A DNA stretch of 64,000 bases from Branchiostoma floridae. Taxonomy: Eukaryota; Chordata; Leptocardii; Amphioxiformes; Branchiostomatidae. The notes below the pieces were generated by a model that saw nothing but the letters and a program-made list of their open reading frames with translations, ran no database searches and had not been told where the DNA came from. Made by a program: the position numbers and the translations under genes. The DNA lies in the NCBI RefSeq assembly GCF_000003815.2, contig NC_049996.1, positions 458,942 through 522,941 of the forward strand, in the 5' to 3' direction. Positions 3,190 to 35,900 of this stretch are shown piece by piece (positions within the stretch are counted from its first letter, which is position 1; every line of letters starts with the position of its first letter).

Positions 3190-22272
<19,083 letters not shown>

Positions 22273-25794: not shown

Positions 25795-26124
25795 CAGGGC
25801 TTTAGCCAGCTCGAATTTTTTTTCCGTCAGCCAATTACAATCATCGTGAAAACCGCGAAAATTAATTAGAAGGACTGTACTGAGACCTTGAAAAACGGGT
25901 TTTAATGAGATTATCGTATGCGAAAGGGCGCCAACACATATTGTCAACAATCATAACAATAGCAAAACAAACAGTGTGTGGCTTTTACGGCCGTGGACGG
26001 CGTCCCCAAGCCGCCTGTAGCTTCCAACAAGGATTTTTGTCCTTCAAGGTTGACGGATTGGTTTTAAAATTTTTCCGTCAGACGCAGCAAATCGACGGAA
26101 AAATGGACGCTGGCTAGAACCCTG
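25795..26124. mobile_element. hAT-type MITE with intact 8-bp target duplication
   Basis: The 330-bp element begins CAGGGCTTTAGCCAGC and ends GCTGGCTAGAACCCTG (imperfect inverted termini). It is flanked on both sides by the identical 8-bp sequence GGGTGCAG (25787-25794 and 26125-26132). CAGGG termini plus an 8-bp duplication are the signature of the hAT superfamily. It has no transposase, so it is non-autonomous. A second, partial copy in inverse orientation lies at 33282-33480 inside a LIPT2 intron. Confidence 0.85.
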
Positions 26125-26607
26125 GGGTGCAGGGATAATAGAATTCTAGAAAACAAGTTGGGAAATTGGTCAGGGGAGTCAGTCCACGTTAGGATCATGT
26201 TTCCTCTCTCGAGTTGCTGACCAAATCATCTGGTAGCAAAACTCCCCAGGTAAATTATTCTCTCTATAACAGCCAGTGTAGTCTGGTAGAGACTAAGAAA
26301 ATGTAAAGATGAACAAAAATAACACACACAGACAACATGTTAACCTTTTAAAGACTGAGTAATATGGAAGCTAAATGCATTCAATGTATAGTACATACAT
26401 GTAACAGAAGATAGAACAAGAATTTTTGTGGTGGTTTTGAGTTTGTGGTCAAGAGGTCCCTGAAAAAAGCACCACATGTAAAGTTTTATGTTCACTATAT
26501 AATAAAATACACCTGTATACAGATACATACAGTACGAGGGGCATTCAATAAGTAATGTCCCTGACCCATTTCCCATAGCAGGAGATTAATGAAACTTGGC
26601 ACAGTTA

Positions 26608-26718
26608 TTAGTCTTTCTCTTCATAGGAACCACCCAGAGTTTTGCATTTCTCCCATCATTTGATGTAGCTCTGGACACCGTTCTTGTAGGACATCCCAGG
26701 TTGGTCCTCCGACAGATG
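26608..26718 (-). pseudogene. Mariner transposase, C-terminal fragment
   Basis: Read on the minus strand, the frame ending in TAA at 26608-26610 carries the pattern typical of the mariner C-terminus: a DQP motif, then an aromatic residue before GVQSYI, then a WEKC motif and a final GGSYEE. One in-frame stop (complement of 26656-26658) falls where family members usually have arginine before WEKC, consistent with a CGA to TGA decay. It is the tail of the same gene whose beginning is at 32170-32404. The DDE/D catalytic region is missing. Confidence 0.75.
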
Positions 26719-26750
26719 CCTCAATACAGGTATATCCGAAGACCGTGGAT

Positions 26751-26938
26751 TGATGAATTCCACAGCTGTGATATTCATCACTTAGATGATGAATTCCACA
26801 GCTGTGAAAATGATGAATTCCACAGCTGTGATATTCATCACTTAGATGATGAATTCCACAGCTGTGAAAATGATGAATTCCACAGCTGTGATATTCATCA
26901 CTTAGATGATGAGTTCCACAGCTATGGAATTAATCAAT
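26751..26938 (+). repeat. 60-bp palindromic tandem repeat, left arm
   Basis: Three direct copies at a 60-bp period. Each holds two versions of a near-perfect palindrome GATGAATTCCACAGCTGTG-ATATTCATC centred on CACAGCTGTG, separated by ACTTAGAT. The inverted counterpart is 32045-32160 in the right arm. Confidence 0.9.
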
Positions 26939-26940
26939 AG

Positions 26941-28152
26941 TGCTGTGGGATTCATCGATCTACTGATGAATCCAACGCCACTTCCGTCCCTAATACTGAC
27001 GATCGGCCGTGGGATTCATCGATCTACTGATGAACCCAACGCCACTTCTGTCCCTAATACTGGCGATCGGCCGTGGGATTCATCGATCTACTGATGAATC
27101 CAACGCCACTTCCGTCCCTTATACTGGCGATCGGCCGTGAGATTCATCGATCTACTGATGAATCCAACGCCACTTCCGCCCCTTATACTGGCGATCGGCC
27201 GTGGGATTCATCGATCTACTGATGAACCCAACGCCACTTCCGTCCCTTATACTGGCGATCGGCCGTGGGATTCATCGATCTACTGATGAACCCAACGCCA
27301 CTTCCATCTGTAATACTGGCGATCGGCCGTGGGATTCATCGATCTACTGATGAAACCAACGCCACTTCTGTCCCTAATACTGGCGATCGGCCGTGGGATT
27401 CATCGATCTACTGATGAACCCAACGCCACTTCTGTCCCTAATACTGGCGATCGGCCGTGAGATTCATCGATCTACTGATGAATCCAACGCCACTTCCGCC
27501 CCTTATACTGGCGATCGGCCGTGGGATTCATCGATCTACTGATGAACCCAACGCCACTTCCGTCCCTTATACTGGCGATCGGCCGTGGGATTCATCGATC
27601 TACTGATGAACCCAACGCCACTTCCGTCCCTTATACTGGCGATCGGCCGTGAGATTCATCGATCTACTGATGAACCCAACGCCACTTCCGTCCCTAATAC
27701 TGGCGATCGGCCGTGGGATTCATCGATCTACTGATGAATCCAACGCCACTTCCGTCCCTTATACTGGCGATCGGCCGTGAGATTCATCGATCTACTGATG
27801 AATCCAACGCCACTTCCGTCCCTAATACTGGCGATCGGCCGTGGGATTCATCGATCTACTGATGAATCCAACGCCACTTCCGTCCCTTATACTGGCGATC
27901 GGCCGTGAGATTCATCGATCTACTGATGAATCCAACGCCACTTCCGTCCCTAATACTGGCGATCGGCCGTGAGATTCATCGATCTACTGATGAATCCAAC
28001 GCCACTTCCGTCCCTAATACCGGCGATCGGCCGTGGGATTCATCGATCTACTGATGAATCCAACGCCACTTCCGTCCCTTATACTGGCGATCGGCCGTGG
28101 GATTCATCGATCTACTGATGAATCCAACGTCCATTCTGTCACTAATACTATA
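26941..28152 (+). repeat. 64-bp tandem array, left arm (about 18 units)
   Basis: Eighteen successive units begin GATCGGCCGTG at exact 64-bp steps from 27001 to 28089, with a partial unit before and degenerate units after. Each unit holds a 9-bp stem GGATTCATC / GATGAATCC around an 8-base loop, then a less structured half containing CCACTTCC and ACTGGC. Variants (GTGAG or GTGGG, TTATAC or TAATAC, AATCC or AACCC) recur in blocks, giving local 128-bp and 320-bp higher-order periods. Open frames across it are artefacts of the repeat. Confidence 0.95.
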
Positions 28153-29039
28153 AAACCTTTGGTCGTCGGATTCATCTATGTAATGATAAAATCTACTGTC
28201 TATGGCAGTGCGGATGCTTCTACAGAGAGCTTTGTAATATTTCTTGTACTATTCTTTGTTGTGGGACTCACAAATTCTAGCACTTATCGACAGCTGAATG
28301 AGCAAGAAAAAAAGTGTACTGAGAACTTTGCATTTATTGGTCACATATTCATATTAGCACACATTTGAATAAAGTTACAATCAATCATCAAACCAATGAT
28401 CATCTGGAAATTCCTGCAAGGAAGATTTTTTTTGCTGATTTTGGAGTTTTGCGCTTCGAGGCATAAACATTTCAACTTGTAATTCAAATGAATTGCTAAC
28501 CATGTTGTGAGCTGTCCAGTACAGTATAATTGATATAAATCTTTATCTGCATGTTTTTTTTCTGTTTGATTACATGTATAACACACTATTTACATTGACT
28601 CCCGCAAAAAAGCCACTTGGCTGACACATGTAACAATGTCGCTGTTTCCTAGAATAATATTGATTGTTTATTTGCAAAATAATACTCCTGAGGGCCTGCA
28701 GGACCCACCTGTTACCAAGTAATTAATGGCTGGATAGCTTTTCCTAGGTAATAACATTCCAAACATTACCGTGGCGTGAACTAGCATTCCTGTGGACACA
28801 TTCCTGTACAAATGGAGCTGACAAATGCTAGAATTGCACACAATACTAATTAGTAATAGAGTTGCACTGCTCCTGTTGCGTGACCAATAACAAAAGTTGC
28901 ACAATATACACAAAACACCCTGCACTTACAGTCATCAATATGTAGTGATAATATCCACGGGCATTCCGTCGCTAATACTGACAATTGACTGTGGACTTTA
29001 TCAATATGTTGTGATGAAGTCGAACGCAGCGTAGAAAGA
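28153..29039. repeat. Degenerate edge of the left arm, with an arm-specific insertion
   Basis: About 28153-28215 is a decayed 64-bp unit (ACTAATACTAT, then GGATTCATCTATGTAATGAT). About 28935-29030 is another (GGGCATTCCGTCGCTAATACTGAC onwards). Between them lie about 700 bp with no counterpart in the right arm, so they were probably inserted later or lost from the other side. I recognise nothing inside those 700 bp. Confidence 0.6.
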
Positions 29040-29316
29040 AAAAAATCACTCAAATCTTTAATACCACCCGCTACCGCAATGACTGATGGGATAGCTTGTG
29101 TTCCATTTTGTTCCTTTGTTTTCAGTCACATGCTGAAGATTTTTGTTCAGCATGTGACATGGGGTGCACTGGAAGAGTAAATTCTTGCACTGGGAATTTT
29201 GGGCTAAAGTGTCATTAGTAGAAGTGACTTTTAAAGAAAAGTGTTCCATTTTTGCACATGGGTGATTTTGGAATAGTCTATTGTTGCATGGGGAGGGAGA
29301 TGGCTGAAATATGCTG

Positions 29317-29475
29317 TACTGTAAATGCAGAAACGTTCTCGGTGGATTAAATGAACTTCGCGGTTTTCACGGCGGCCACTTCACTGCGAACTTAAAACCG
29401 CCGCGAACATTTTTCCATAACAGTAAGAGACTATAGTGCATGTTGCTACAGTGAAATAAAAAACACCGCAAAAAG
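29317..29475. mobile_element. Hairpin MITE, TACTGTAAATGCA family (one end clear)
   Basis: It starts TACTGTAAATGCAGAAACG and continues with CTTCGCGGTTTTCACGGCGG and AACTTAAAACCGCCGCGAAC, in the family order. The far end decays around 29460-29480, shortly before the assembly gap. Confidence 0.65.
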
Positions 29476-29582
29476 TCCATGTTATCTGTTGATATGATAA
29501 ATTTTTCAGGCCATTCTTGAGCAGCATGTTGAGTAAAGTCTTTATTTGGCTCCCTATTATCAACAAAATTGTTTAAAGTTTT

Positions 29583-30009
29583 NNNNNNNNNNNNNNNNNN
29601 NNNNNNNNNNNNNNNNNNNNNNNNNNNNNNNNNNNNNNNNNNNNNNNNNNNNNNNNNNNNNNNNNNNNNNNNNNNNNNNNNNNNNNNNNNNNNNNNNNNN
29701 NNNNNNNNNNNNNNNNNNNNNNNNNNNNNNNNNNNNNNNNNNNNNNNNNNNNNNNNNNNNNNNNNNNNNNNNNNNNNNNNNNNNNNNNNNNNNNNNNNNN
29801 NNNNNNNNNNNNNNNNNNNNNNNNNNNNNNNNNNNNNNNNNNNNNNNNNNNNNNNNNNNNNNNNNNNNNNNNNNNNNNNNNNNNNNNNNNNNNNNNNNNN
29901 NNNNNNNNNNNNNNNNNNNNNNNNNNNNNNNNNNNNNNNNNNNNNNNNNNNNNNNNNNNNNNNNNNNNNNNNNNNNNNNNNNNNNNNNNNNNNNNNNNNN
30001 NNNNNNNNN
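29583..30009. other. Assembly gap (427 N)
   Basis: This is a run of 427 undetermined bases within the loop between the two inverted repeat arms, a place where a large palindrome would be hard to assemble. Open frames crossing it are meaningless. Confidence 0.99.
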
Positions 30010-31189
30010 CAGTAAACTTTTGTAAGATTTTTTTTATATCGGAGGATCCTGTAATGCCTCTGTAAATTTGAGTTTGGAGTTATCATCCCAAATGTACTTA
30101 GTTGGTAATGGGTTTGTTGGGGCTTTAGCTTGTTTTACATAAGGTGAATAGTTAGTTGAGATAGAGCATCAATTAAACAGTAGTCTGTTGGTTTAGTATT
30201 GTTTGTGATTGATTGAAAAACAAAGGAGCATTGGTCAAAACAAGTCATAATCCCTTACCACCCAAGCCACAAAGCACAACATTGGGAAGCAGTGAAATTT
30301 TCTTGCATACAGTCTGTTGGTTTAGTATTGTTTGTGAGTGATTGAAAAACAAGCTTGGCCTTTTCTGGCTGGGAAAGTTCGTCTTGTCATTGAAGGGAAA
30401 CTTGAGAATTCTCACCTACCTGTATAGGCCCAATTTCTGACAAGAAAGACTTCAGACAGTGTAACGATCTCAATCGTTGAATTATTGAGAGAGTTTATTT
30501 TAGCAATAGAAGGGAGAGTTGAATCCAATGAGCTTTTATAAAACTTTAAAAGCTTTTATAAAAGCTCCTTGCTAGAAAAACCTCACGGCCCACTGAATAA
30601 TATCAACATACGTGTGGCTTCTTTGCTGCGTGGGACACTTTAGTGATCATGGGACCCCGGGACTAAATGGGCAGCCATAAGCATATCGTTAGTTTATTTA
30701 CGCATTTTGATCGCAAGGTATACTAGTGCCCAAAATTTTAATAGCATATAACGACAAGAATGGTGTCGCTTATATCTTTTCGATGATAAAACTGTCCTAA
30801 TTAGTCTACCATCGATATTTCAAAACAGGGCTAATCTGCTACACATATTGAATTCCTAATTTACCATATTGTTCGCTACTTTTGAGTAACATATGTCTGC
30901 ATATTAAGAGGGAATTTCGTTTGTGAACAAAAATCTTCAGCATGTGACTGAAAACAAAGGAACAAAATGGCACCCAAGCTATCCCATCAGTCATTGCGGT
31001 AGTGGGTGGTATTAAAGATTTGAGTGATTTTTATGTATGTGTATGTAAGTTTTAAATTTTAGAAATGATTCCGGCCATGCAATTCATCAAGCCTCTGTTA
31101 AATCCATCCCTGTGGAGAGACTAAAAATTAAAAAAATTGATGACATAGAGATCATTAATTAACCTAAGTAGTAAAATCCAAGACTGTAT

Positions 31190-32044
31190 CGATGAATCCC
31201 ACGGCCGATCGCCAGTATTAGGGACAGAAGTGGCGTTGGATTCATCAGTAGATCGATGAATCCCACGGCCGATCGCGAGGATTAGGGACGGAAGTGGCGT
31301 TGGATTCATCAGTAGATCGATGAATCCCACGGCCGATCGCCAGTATTAGGGACGGAAGTGGCGTTGGATTCATCAGTAGATCGATGAATCCCACGGCCGA
31401 TCGCCAGTATTAGGGACGGAAGTGGCGTTGGATTCATCAGTAGATCGATGAATCCCACGGCCGATCGCCAGTATTAGGGACGGAAGTGGCGTTGGATTCA
31501 TCAGTAGATCGATGAATCTCACGGCCGATCGCCAGTATAAGGGACGGAATTGCGCGGAAGTGGCGTTGGATTCATCAGTAGATCGATGAATCCCACGGCC
31601 GATCGCCAGGATAAGGGGCGGAAGTGGCGTTGGATTCATCAGTAGATCGATGAATCCCACGGCCGATCGCCAGTATAAGGGGCGGAAGTGGCGTTGGATT
31701 CATCAGTAGATCGATGAATCCCACGGCCGATCGCCAGTATAAGGGGCGGAAGTGGCGTTGGATTCATCAGTAGATCGATGAATCCCACGGCCGATCGCCA
31801 GTATTAGGGACGGAAGTGGCGTTGGATTCATCAGTAGATCGATGAATCTCACGGCCGATCGCCAGTATAAGGGGCGGAAGTGGCGTTGGATTCATCAGTA
31901 GATCGATGAATCCCACGGCCGATCGCCAGTATAAGGGACGGAAGTGGCGTTGGATTCATCAGTAGATCGATGAATCCCACGGCCGATCGCCAGTATAAGG
32001 GACGGAAGTGGCGTTGGATTCATCAGTAGATCGATGAATCTCAC
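31190..32044 (-). repeat. 64-bp tandem array, right arm (13 units)
   Basis: The same 64-bp unit as in the left arm, in opposite orientation. GGCCGATCG recurs at 31203, 31267, 31331, 31395, 31459 and 31523, then, after an extra 10 bp (near 31550, GAATTGCGCG), at 31597 and every 64 bp to 31981. The copies are very similar to those of the left arm, so the arms are either young or kept alike by exchange. Confidence 0.95.
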
Positions 32045-32160
32045 AGCACTATTGATGATTCCACAGCTGTGGAATTCATCATCTGATGAATATCACAGCT
32101 GTGGAATTCATCATCTAAGTGATGAATATCACAGCTGTGGAATTCATCAATCCACGGTCT
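32045..32160 (-). repeat. Palindromic repeats, right arm
   Basis: The inverted counterpart of 26751-26938: three palindromes centred on CACAGCTGTG, each flanked by ATTCATC or GATGAAT. One spacing is shorter (ATCATCTGATGAAT near 32080), so the right arm has lost part of one 60-bp unit. Confidence 0.85.
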
Positions 32161-32169
32161 TCAGATATA

Positions 32170-32404
32170 GCTCCTCAATAATGGCAGAAGAGGGACGACC
32201 AGGTCTGGGAGCTGTTTCCACAGACTTCCGACCTTGTTTGAATTCAGGATGCCAGCGTTTTACAAGGTCATATGATGGGGCGTCATCACCATAAGTTTTT
32301 TTCATTTCATCAAAAGTCCCCTTTGGTGTGCGTCCTTTCAAATACAAAAACCGGATCACTGCGCGACACTCAACTTGCTCCATTTCACACCTGGTCCATT
32401 TCAC
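32170..32404 (-). pseudogene. Mariner transposase, N-terminal fragment
   Basis: Minus-strand open frame of about 78 meaningful residues starting at 32404. It carries the N-terminal DNA-binding domain of mariner transposases: a helix-turn-helix with a FLYLKGRTPKG stretch, GDDAPSY, KRW, FKQGRKSVE and PRPGRPSS. The match with the foldback boundary at 32172 ends the gene abruptly. Family members are about 340-350 aa, so only the first quarter is here; the tail is at 26608-26718. No catalytic residues are present. Confidence 0.88.
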
Positions 32405-32566
32405 ACCTGACTCAGTTCAAACACCAGTAAATCAGTAACCACAATTATTTCAGAGCTGTTTTTTGCAACATAACCCATAGAGATATGACTCATTACACAT
32501 GCAAAATTTCATCTAGATCAGACAACTGGAAGTGGGTCAGGGACATTACTTATTGAATGCCCCTCG

Positions 32567-32931
32567 TAGGTAGCTACATAGCATGTCTGTCTCCAGGATC
32601 TGTCCTTCTATCCTGAGACCGAAATTTGCTTGTTGGGATGGACAAAATTCCACCATATCTGTCCCAAAAATCTGAACTTCAGATAACATGTTACATGAAA
32701 TTGATCAAAATATGTTTTCATCAGCCTAAAATGGAAGATTTTACAAGGAAAATTAACAACATTGGCTCCCAAAAAATGGGAGGGGCGAAAAAAATTCAAG
32801 CTGGAAACAGCCCTGGTACATAAATAGGCAATCTTCTATCTCATTGACACCCTTCTTCATGTTTTTCTTCACTATTAGTGTTAGGAACTGCTGAGCACAG
32901 AAAGTATATGGATCAAAAGCGTCCTCTTTTA
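32567..32931. other. Spacer between the mariner element and the LIPT2 3' end
   Basis: This stretch would contain the LIPT2 3' UTR. I see no canonical AATAAA on the minus strand. No other feature is recognised. Confidence 0.5.
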
Positions 32932-35900
32932 TCAGACAGTACTGCAGCTTGCTTCATCCTCACTATTCCTTCCTGTTGGTACATTTTGGTCCAAGTGTAG
33001 AACTTCTGAGCAGTCAAACTGTGCAGCGAATGATGCAACCATTGTGGGGATGGCGTCTTGGATTTTGATGTTATATCCAAGCTCCATGCTCAGCGAGGTC
33101 ACGCCCTTTCCCACAATTCCACAGGGCACGATGTGGCGGAACCAGGTCATGTCAGGGTTACAGTTCAGGGCAAAGCCGTGTGTGGTGATGAACCTGCTAC
33201 CATGGACTCCTGGAATAAAGTGGAAAAAATGTCTGGCTTAGAGAAATGGTAGAAAGGTAAAGGTAAAGATAAAGGTCCCATCAGGACTCTAGCCAGCATT
33301 GGTTTTCCGTCAATTGACGGAAATTCGCTTCATGTGACGGAAAAAATATAAAACCAATCTGTCAACCTTGACGGACAAATATCCTTGGTGGAAGCTTAGT
33401 AGGCGGCTTGGGGACGCCGTCCATGGTCAGAAAACCACACTCTATTTGTTTTTGTTATGATTGTTGATGATTAAACATTAGAGCACAAGTCTTTGTCGGT
33501 GAATTTACCAACATTGCGCATGTCAGTATCAGTCATTTTTGGTAGACTTTGGCAGAGTCAGTTGAATTTTGAGACGATCGTAAACTATGTTACTTGGTGA
33601 GAAAGATCAGTGGGTACTGAAATCATGTATAACTTACTAGTATTGTTTATGGTCAATTGACCAGAATATAGTGGCCACCTGTCTATAGTGGACATATTTT
33701 TTCTATTCTCTTGAGTGGCTGCTATAGACAGGTTTGACTGTACTAGACTCAGTTGTTGTGGTGATTAGGCACGTCCTAACCCAAAAACTAACTCACCATT
33801 GAACTGAAACATATGGACAGTTCCTCTCACCTACAGCACAGATTTTCCTGTCCCCAACCCACACCCCCGTGTCTGGTGACGTCTGTGCCTGGATACCGAA
33901 TGATTGACAGGTGCGGATCACGCTCTTCTCCAGCTGACAGATGTACCACTTCATCGACTTCCTGGGAAGACAAGATTTACACTGTGAAAAATAGTGAAAA
34001 AGATCTTGTACCAGTTTAGCTCAAATGAAATCAATGAACATTTACTAATAGGCTATTCTTCCACTGGTTGTGACTGAGAAGACAGATGCTATGTCTGTAT
34101 TACATGTATATACAGGTTCATTGTACCAGGGAAATTCAAGGACTTCTAAACTGACGATGCCAAATGGCTTTAAGCCTTATGGCCAAACGGTTTAGCGTCT
34201 GGGTTTGTGAGCTGGCAGCCCAGAATCCGTGCAGGTTAGAATCCTGGGAGTCAAGATATTTGTATATATTGTTATCTCCATCTCCATGAAAAATGGAGAT
34301 ATAGTTTTGGGTGTATCTGTGTGTGTGTCTGTCTGTGTGTCTGTGTGTCCGGATCTTTGTAGTGAGCATAACTCAAGAACCCCTTTATGGATTACGATGA
34401 TATTTGGTTTGTGGGTAGGTGTTGGGAAGACAGGGGTCAAGGTCAATTTTGGGCCCCCTGGTATGTGACCTTGGTACTGCAGCAGTAATTCATTTTTTGG
34501 ATATTTTGAACTGAATGTGCTATGGTCTTGATTTTTGGATGGCAGATAGCTTGTAACATAAGAGATATGAGGTGTATATTTGGTCCCCCTAGCAGGTTGC
34601 TCTAGAACTGCAGGGGCATTTTAGTCAAAATCTTCTAAGGAGGATAACTGAAGAAGGGAACGACAAATTTATAAGATATTTGGTATGTAAGCAGATTAGA
34701 CAGAGATGCACATGATGAAGTGCAAATTATGCAAACTGACACTTAATTTGCATATTTAATGAGGAAAATCTGTATTTGCAGTGTTTCCTTTATAGAACTA
34801 AAATACACGTAATATGTGTAGTTTGTGGTAGGTGGAACATTATCAGATACCAATTATGCAAATAAGTCCTTAATTTGCATAATTAAAACGAAATTGCCAT
34901 AATTCATCGATGTGAATGAGAGGACAATCAACATAGTGACCTGCGTAGGTCATTTACAGGTGTACAAAACTAAGCACAGATTATGCAAATGTGGAAGACA
35001 TTTACATAATCAGATTATTTCATGGAGATATGAGGTCTCCGAACTCTTATTTCTGTCTGTTTATACTCCCTTCTTCTCATATTAAACCCCAAGACTTTTG
35101 AGGCGGGTCACTTAAAACCGCTGGACTACACACACTTAGTTGCCAGATAACCATTCTTTTTTTCTATATTTCATAAAACATAAATATTGACAAGCAGAGA
35201 CTTTCCCCACCTGAAATGTGCCAGGTTTATTACTGGATAAACCACCAGTTGCCCTGGGCCATGGTATGTTATCAGTCCCCCTCTGTTAGTTCTGCAACGC
35301 AAATATCATACAAATTTAGCTTAATTAACACACTATAACATTAACATCTATTATCATAATACCGGTACGTTTACGACGATTTCTCTAGCCATACTGATTT
35401 GACAAATTGTCAACGCATCATTTTCTCCAGTTACATGTTGCTGTTATAGGTTACCCTTGCCACTTCTTCTGTGTAACTTTTCTGCCACTCTTGTCCTGCT
35501 GAAAGCGTAATATTGTAATTGTAACACGCCGCGGAATTACACGGCGAACGGGCGCGTGGTTGGGAGGGGGTACAAAATACCGGTAGGAAGAAACACGGCA
35601 CAATTAACTGCCGCTATGTACATTTATACATCCTCTGATGTTCCTTCCTTTTCTGTCAATAAATGCATAAAACATAAACCTGCATGAGCATACAAAATGT
35701 CATGAGAAAACGGACGTATACAGTCAAGAATTTTCATTTAACTTCTGTCCGTCACAACCGCTATGACGTAACACTTCACTGCTAGCGTAGATATAAAAAT
35801 GGCGGGAAAATGGCTGCGTACGTTCAATTTTGCCCATTCAGTCGTAGATCCGGGCTATTATGCAACGGTTCTTCACACTTTTACATGAGTTGTAGGTCAC

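Follow-up and report, generated by a model that had tools for sequence, protein, structure and literature searches.

Two transposable elements, one lodged inside the other, occupy positions 26535 to 32566 of a 64,000-nucleotide stretch of the Branchiostoma floridae genome (contig NC_049996.1, positions 458,942 to 522,941 of the forward strand), which we refer to throughout as the window. The outer element is a miniature inverted-repeat transposable element (MITE) derived from a mariner transposon, and the inner one is a foldback element, whose long inverted arms are composed of tandem repeats. Taken as a whole, the locus appears to be an ordinary nested insertion of two elements that move independently. 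Its features, in window coordinates, are as follows.

26533..26534: TA target-site duplication of the mariner MITE, left (sequence; same TA in 18 of 18 fetched copies)
26535..26573, plus strand: mariner terminal inverted repeat, left, 39 bp (end-to-end alignment)
26535..26726: left part of the 578-bp mariner MITE, with a weak C-terminal coding remnant on the minus strand and one in-frame TGA
26720..26726: 7-bp target-site duplication CTCAATA of the foldback, left (comparison with other copies)
26727..32173, plus strand: foldback element, from A end (CAGGTATATCC) to B end (GAGCTATATCT, read inward), 5447 bp including the gap
26751..26923, plus strand: 60-bp array of the left arm, 2.9 copies
26945..28149, plus strand: 64-bp array of the left arm, 18.8 copies
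28935..29030, plus strand: degenerate repeat unit, by eye resembling the 66-bp unit of a sister family (sequence)
29041..29149, plus strand: inner unique domain of the left arm, 109 bp
29583..30009: assembly gap (N), mid-element; the same stretch is about 434 bp in the copy on contig C2
30924..31032, minus strand: inner unique domain of the right arm, 97% to the left
31188..32044, minus strand: 64-bp array of the right arm, 13.2 copies
32062..32149, minus strand: 60-bp-type repeats of the right arm
32174..32180: 7-bp target-site duplication CTCAATA, right (comparison with other copies)
32174..32416, minus strand: N-terminal mariner transposase remnant (HTH_48), its far end within the right duplication
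32181..32566: right part of the mariner MITE
32528..32566, minus strand: mariner terminal inverted repeat, right, 39 bp
32567..32568: TA target-site duplication of the mariner MITE, right (sequence; fetched copies)

The mariner MITE and its deletion

A preliminary description of this DNA, made from the letters alone, had reported 39-bp mariner ends with TA flanks, and alignment of the ends at 26535 and 32566 bears this out: 41 letters match, the TA included, with a single mismatch. The same description placed both termini of one transposase gene between these ends, of which the N-terminus is well founded. The right part (32174-32416, minus strand) is the beginning of a mariner transposase, matching Pfam HTH_48 with an E-value of 8.8e-9 and SETMAR 7s03 with an E-value of 6.7e-5. 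The C-terminus is a weak match only: the left part (26611-26724, minus strand) is collinear with the very end of SETMAR at an E-value of 0.91, third after unrelated chains at 0.39 and 0.69, and a Pfam search of this fragment returned nothing relevant.

The catalytic middle of the transposase is absent from the window copy, as had been stated, but comparison with other copies dates the loss differently. The genome searched was the 513-Mb assembly of 431 contigs, in which the window lies on contig C18; the best candidates of each search were scored, and counts across the genome are lower bounds. Eighteen MITE copies were fetched, a biased sample since they were chosen by perfect match over the first 189 bases. 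All 18 align across positions 1-581 of the window's joined flanks at 96.7-99.1% and carry the same internal deletion; all have TA outside their ends, none contains the foldback, and they diverge by 0.2-1.7% from their consensus. Because these foldback-free copies share the identical deletion, the catalytic centre was lost before the foldback inserted.

A search with one MITE copy gave full-length matches of 98-100% at each of the 40 places scored (the best 40 of 1073 first-look candidates). Among these 40 are the query itself and 11 of the 18 copies fetched, but not the window's copy. Interrupted copies rank below them, so the result speaks for the abundance of the MITE and has no bearing on whether composites exist. 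The N-terminal remnant likewise found a match at all 150 places scored (the best 150 of 1189 candidates), and at 102 of these the frame was 113 aa long, as in the deleted form. Two places were picked for their longer frames; one is a whole MITE, and the other has the same junction and continues up to MITE base 476, where it runs into N. No full-length mariner was present among the fetched copies, and a search of viral contigs for the N-terminal remnant and its end confirmed nothing.

What had been called a gutted mariner is one of many copies of a 578-bp mariner MITE with an internal deletion. The window copy displays the hallmarks of a Tc1/mariner MITE, namely a TA duplication, matching inverted ends and a mariner-related coding remnant. 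It resembles mariner MITEs of the Mos1/SETMAR-like kind in its TA flanks, 39-bp inverted ends, HTH_48 remnant, internal deletion and high copy number, and the sole notable difference is that the window copy is split by the foldback.

A dispersed foldback family with tandem-repeat arms

The inner element has the build of the foldback class: its arms are near mirror images, long inverted stretches of tandem repeats around a middle domain. Toward the centre they also contain a 109-bp inverted pair (29041-29149 and 30924-31032, 97%) that the preliminary description had not listed. When the first 74 bases were used as query, 9 A-type ends (99-100%) and 12 B-type ends (96-99%) were fetched, representing 12 distinct loci together with a contig, C386, that duplicates the B-end flank of the copy at C6:9.07 Mb. 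Both ends are present at 8 of the 12 loci. Within the fetched stretches, C10 has an A end only, and C16, C14:14.62 and C6:24.72 have a B end only, the last of these with an A arm that is without its tip. Six more ends (89-98% identity) are outside the fetched set, and of thirteen at 82-86% one pair was fetched.

The target-site duplications of these copies argue for transposition. Exact 7-bp duplications flank five of the eight two-ended loci: CTCAATA (window), TGAAACT, ATCAAAC, GTCTCTG and GTAGAAT. For the first two, including the terminal base of the B end gives an alternative reading of 8 bp; the other three are 7 bp only, and a sixth locus has an exact 8-bp duplication, ACATGAAA. Dispersed copies with target-site duplications, as characterize the foldback class, are thus exact at six of eight two-ended loci. 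By comparison, when ±2 nt of freedom was allowed, chance produced an 8-bp match in 104 of 200,000 randomly drawn pairs of sites. The 8-bp repeat previously taken to bound the window's element, CCTCAATA, is indeed present on both sides (26719-26726 and 32173-32180), but its length was not upheld. The ends of the other copies read CAGG.. and GAGCT.., which places the element at 26727-32173 and makes the duplication 7 bp, CTCAATA; the window by itself would also allow 8 bp, but three other loci allow 7 only.

Similarity extends into the interior. Five of six other copies compared contain all or part of a 1.2-kb interior stretch at 97.0-99.7% identity to the window copy; it was not found in the sixth, which holds a large gap. 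The 280 bp starting at the left inner domain (29041) recur at 99-100% in 9 places, the window and the duplicate contig C386 included; partial matches at another 31 listed places represent a different interspersed repeat. No foldback at the 11 other loci sits within a copy of the MITE, and no mariner was found in the 13 fetched stretches L027-L039. The foldback is an independent young family. Searching the genome for foldbacks elsewhere, as the preliminary description had proposed, revealed 11 other loci and independent mobility; confinement of the arms to this locus, which it had named as a sign of local rearrangement, is contradicted by their dispersal over 12 loci.

The arms do consist of 60- and 64-bp arrays in inverted orientation, as originally described, but the two repeats are not unrelated. 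The tip, the 60-bp unit, the 64-bp unit and the 66-bp unit of the sister family have in common a module, TGATGAATTCCACAGC or close variants of it, and its score was reached by 0 of 400 shuffles in each of six comparisons; judged by this module, the 60- and 64-bp units are related to each other. Unit anchors counted in eight copies gave 6-23 units in A arms (apart from one arm that meets a gap after 2) and 9-21 in B arms. Across 196 full units, 2.6-2.7 differences per 64 bases were observed, irrespective of whether a pair was drawn from one arm, from both arms of a copy or from two copies, and homogenization of arms within a copy was not seen (355 of 5040 pairings across 7 copies did at least as well). 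Units unsorted by copy or arm imply that the arrays lengthen and shorten yet are not homogenized copy by copy, as expected of a young burst. Every 64-bp array among the matches listed sits in a foldback locus, so no free satellite was seen among them. From the shared module, and by comparison with the foldbacks Tetris and Galileo discussed below, we infer that the arms are multiplied transposase-binding sites.

Some copies hold additional DNA, 2.5 kb in L028 and 2.9 kb in L033. These segments were considered as parts of an autonomous element and rejected, the longest frame listed among the copies scanned for frames being 163 aa; they are probably nested insertions. In L038 (2529-2863) a foldback B end abuts a 66-bp repeat array like that of the sister family, and foldbacks may nest in foldbacks. 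The window's foldback interior itself contains an interspersed repeat (29317-29478) with relatives elsewhere in the window at 14328, 15418, 40795 and 58564.

Origin of the nest

We consider it highly probable (about 95%) that the locus arose by nested cut-and-paste insertions, in which the foldback jumped into a pre-existing MITE copy. In a first step, the 578-bp internally deleted MITE would have inserted at a TA, presumably mobilized in trans by a mariner transposase. In a second, a non-autonomous, tandem-repeat-armed foldback of about 5.4 kb, belonging to an independent family, would have entered this MITE copy and duplicated 7 bp (CTCAATA). The tandem units, each with the module found just inside the tips (TGATGAATTCCACAGC), probably multiply the binding sites for a transposase supplied in trans, in the manner of the Drosophila element Galileo, and the number of units may drift between copies through unequal exchange. 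A foldback landing in an internally deleted mariner was one of two possibilities raised in the preliminary description, and both the foldback-free MITE copies and the independent foldback loci support it.

The other possibility was that the mariner ends now mobilize the whole 6-kb satellite-bearing composite. Intact mariner ends with TA flanks do surround the unit in the window. However, a query spanning the left junction matched across it at the window's place only (best 40 of 1101 candidates scored, in which a composite should rank first); the next nearest match, at C6:24718311, continues for 5 bases past the junction, a chance CAATA. The foldback is also missing from all 18 fetched mariner copies, a picked sample, and mariner from all 13 other fetched foldback stretches. 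With no second composite among the scored candidates or the fetched copies, we regard mobilization by the mariner ends as highly improbable. The new route for spreading satellites that it implied is thereby removed, and a known one takes its place: foldback arms acting as satellite nurseries, as in the Drosophila virilis foldback Tetris.

Returning to nested insertion, the foldback lies on the founding deletion junction of the MITE, a position that gave the impression that its arrival had cost the mariner the catalytic centre. The same position speaks for a different sequence of events, with the foldback landing in a full-length mariner whose catalytic centre disappeared later. Given the identical deletion in 18 of 18 foldback-free copies, and the same junction in both copies picked for longer frames, a later loss is scarcely credible. 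Under the nested reading we estimate the overlap of insertion site and junction (some ten bases among 578) to be a coincidence of a few per cent.

Local rearrangement or formation of a palindrome in place, with CCTCAATA as microhomology, would draw on two observations: CCTCA is native to the site in the MITE consensus, and the arms are rich in short inverted repeats. It is set against an element dispersed at 12 loci with exact 7-8-bp duplications at six of the eight two-ended ones, and we give it almost no weight.

Several findings nevertheless count against two successive insertions as we propose them. The duplication reads CTCAATA on both sides, as opposed to CTCATCA in the MITE consensus, and ATA occurs in 0 of 18 fetched copies; these two adjacent changes make up two of only four differences in total between the window copy and the consensus. 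Since both sides of a staggered-cut duplication are copied from the same original, the target MITE copy probably carried the two changes before the insertion. Among the two-ended foldbacks, one of eight matches at 6 of 7 duplication bases (TCAGATC/TCAGATG) and one of eight lacks a duplication. Finally, no transposase was found for the foldback, which leaves the enzyme and the binding-site role of the repeats as proposals.

Candidate enzymes, related foldbacks and larger copies

No foldback transposase was detected in the frames and interiors looked at (one interior in six frames, against Pfam; no genome-wide family search was made). A 149-aa minus-strand frame in the gap region looked by eye as if derived from a long interspersed nuclear element (LINE), a candidate that was dropped: BLASTP against part of a LINE-like frame from the 42.5-kb C5 copy described below gave an E-value of 0.52, and Pfam a sub-threshold ApoC-I match only. 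Transposons of the hAT superfamily generate 8-bp duplications, a length that three of the eight loci do not permit, as they allow 7 bp only. In the MULE/Phantom superfamily, duplications range from 8 to 11 bp and are mostly 9 bp.

The preliminary description had called the element MULE-like, and foldbacks such as Tm1, a Mutator/Foldback element of root-knot nematodes, suggest the same superfamily. Tm1 shares with the amphioxus element composite arms with a variable tandem motif and asymmetric short tips outside the inverted repeat (PMC3169594). In contrast, its duplications are 8-10 bp, mostly 9 (45 of 53), and it is associated with a MULE transposase (PMC3169594). Here, three of eight loci allow 7 bp only, two allow 7 or 8 and one 8 only, and a six-frame Pfam scan of one foldback interior showed no MULE domain. 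Membership in MULE/Phantom therefore seems unlikely.

The duplication length (7 bp at five of eight loci, two of them also readable as 8, and 8 bp at one) suits the P superfamily and its member Galileo, whose duplications are mostly 7 bp with a few of 8 bp (PMC4168063, PMC3688188). On this ground a Galileo-like enzyme of the P superfamily is our best guess, with about an even chance of being right. Galileo also has long inverted repeats and, in some copies, internal tandem repeats, which carry extra binding sites for its transposase (PMC4168063, PMC3688188). Some Galileo copies retain transposase segments, and its insertions have the target consensus GTANTAC (PMC4168063, PMC3688188). Neither was encountered in the amphioxus copies looked at; by eye there is no sign of the consensus among the five 7-bp duplications, a small number of sites.

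In its architecture the amphioxus element also recalls Tetris, which is non-autonomous, has long inverted arms made up of flanking, variable-number tandem-repeat and inner domains, contains a repeat with a stretch in common with the flanking domain, and likewise has no transposase found for it (PMC4079207). The two differ in duplication length (8-10 bp in Tetris versus 7, once 8, in amphioxus) and in unit length (220 bp versus 60 and 64 bp). Tetris repeats, moreover, also occur in long satellite-like arrays (PMC4079207), while the amphioxus 64-bp arrays, among the matches listed, are foldback-bound.

The kind of element is itself known. Within the deuterostomes, the TU elements of sea urchin are foldbacks with tandemly repeated arms. 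A sea-urchin foldback is also cited within PMC4079207. No amphioxus foldback of this build was met among the papers listed in literature searches, Repbase being outside their scope, and the family seems new to those listings. It provides a young chordate example in which the similarity of the copies lets arm-length drift, module expansion and insertion specificity be measured directly.

A sister foldback of 13.6 kb lies at C5:6022224-6035820 (L048-L049), with 66-bp repeat arms and the tip CAGGTATATCCAAGGACCG. A duplication was not seen at its ends, no frame of at least 90 aa resembles a transposase, and the one frame scanned had no match. A copy of the mariner MITE is located at C5:6020624-6021205, 1.0 kb before this foldback.

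A member of the window's own family is also on C5 (22433426-22475948, L030 to L031), where it spans 42.5 kb and its flanks agree at 6 of 7 duplication bases. This copy falls into two collinear halves, which meet the interior of the other copies at one exact base, with 31 kb in between and no N at the joins. The 31-kb block carries ADAMTS exons (TSP1 and spacer domains, Pfam above cut-off); the extra DNA also includes a frame matching GIY-YIG below threshold, and a second insert that has a TTA duplication and frames that are LINE-like by eye. This content led us to reject the copy as an autonomous element. The first kilobase of the block recurs once, at C5:25884430 (91%), 3.4 Mb away, with homology that starts at the join and a shared TAT. 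Two origins are conceivable for the block: insertion of host DNA into the element, or a chimeric join in the assembly. A broader picture, in which a recently active foldback lineage with arms that are expandable arrays of transposase-binding modules would spread 60-, 64- and 66-bp satellites and, through its palindromic arms, also catch large host segments as in the C5 copy, strikes us as rather doubtful.

Two further features lie just outside the nest. A 78% inverted repeat (25944-26124 and 33282-33467) brackets it immediately beyond the MITE and is perhaps an unrelated interspersed repeat. In addition, a lipoyl/octanoyl transferase frame (Pfam LplA-B_cat, E-value 3.3e-9) is found on the minus strand at 32932-33237, 0.4 kb from the MITE.

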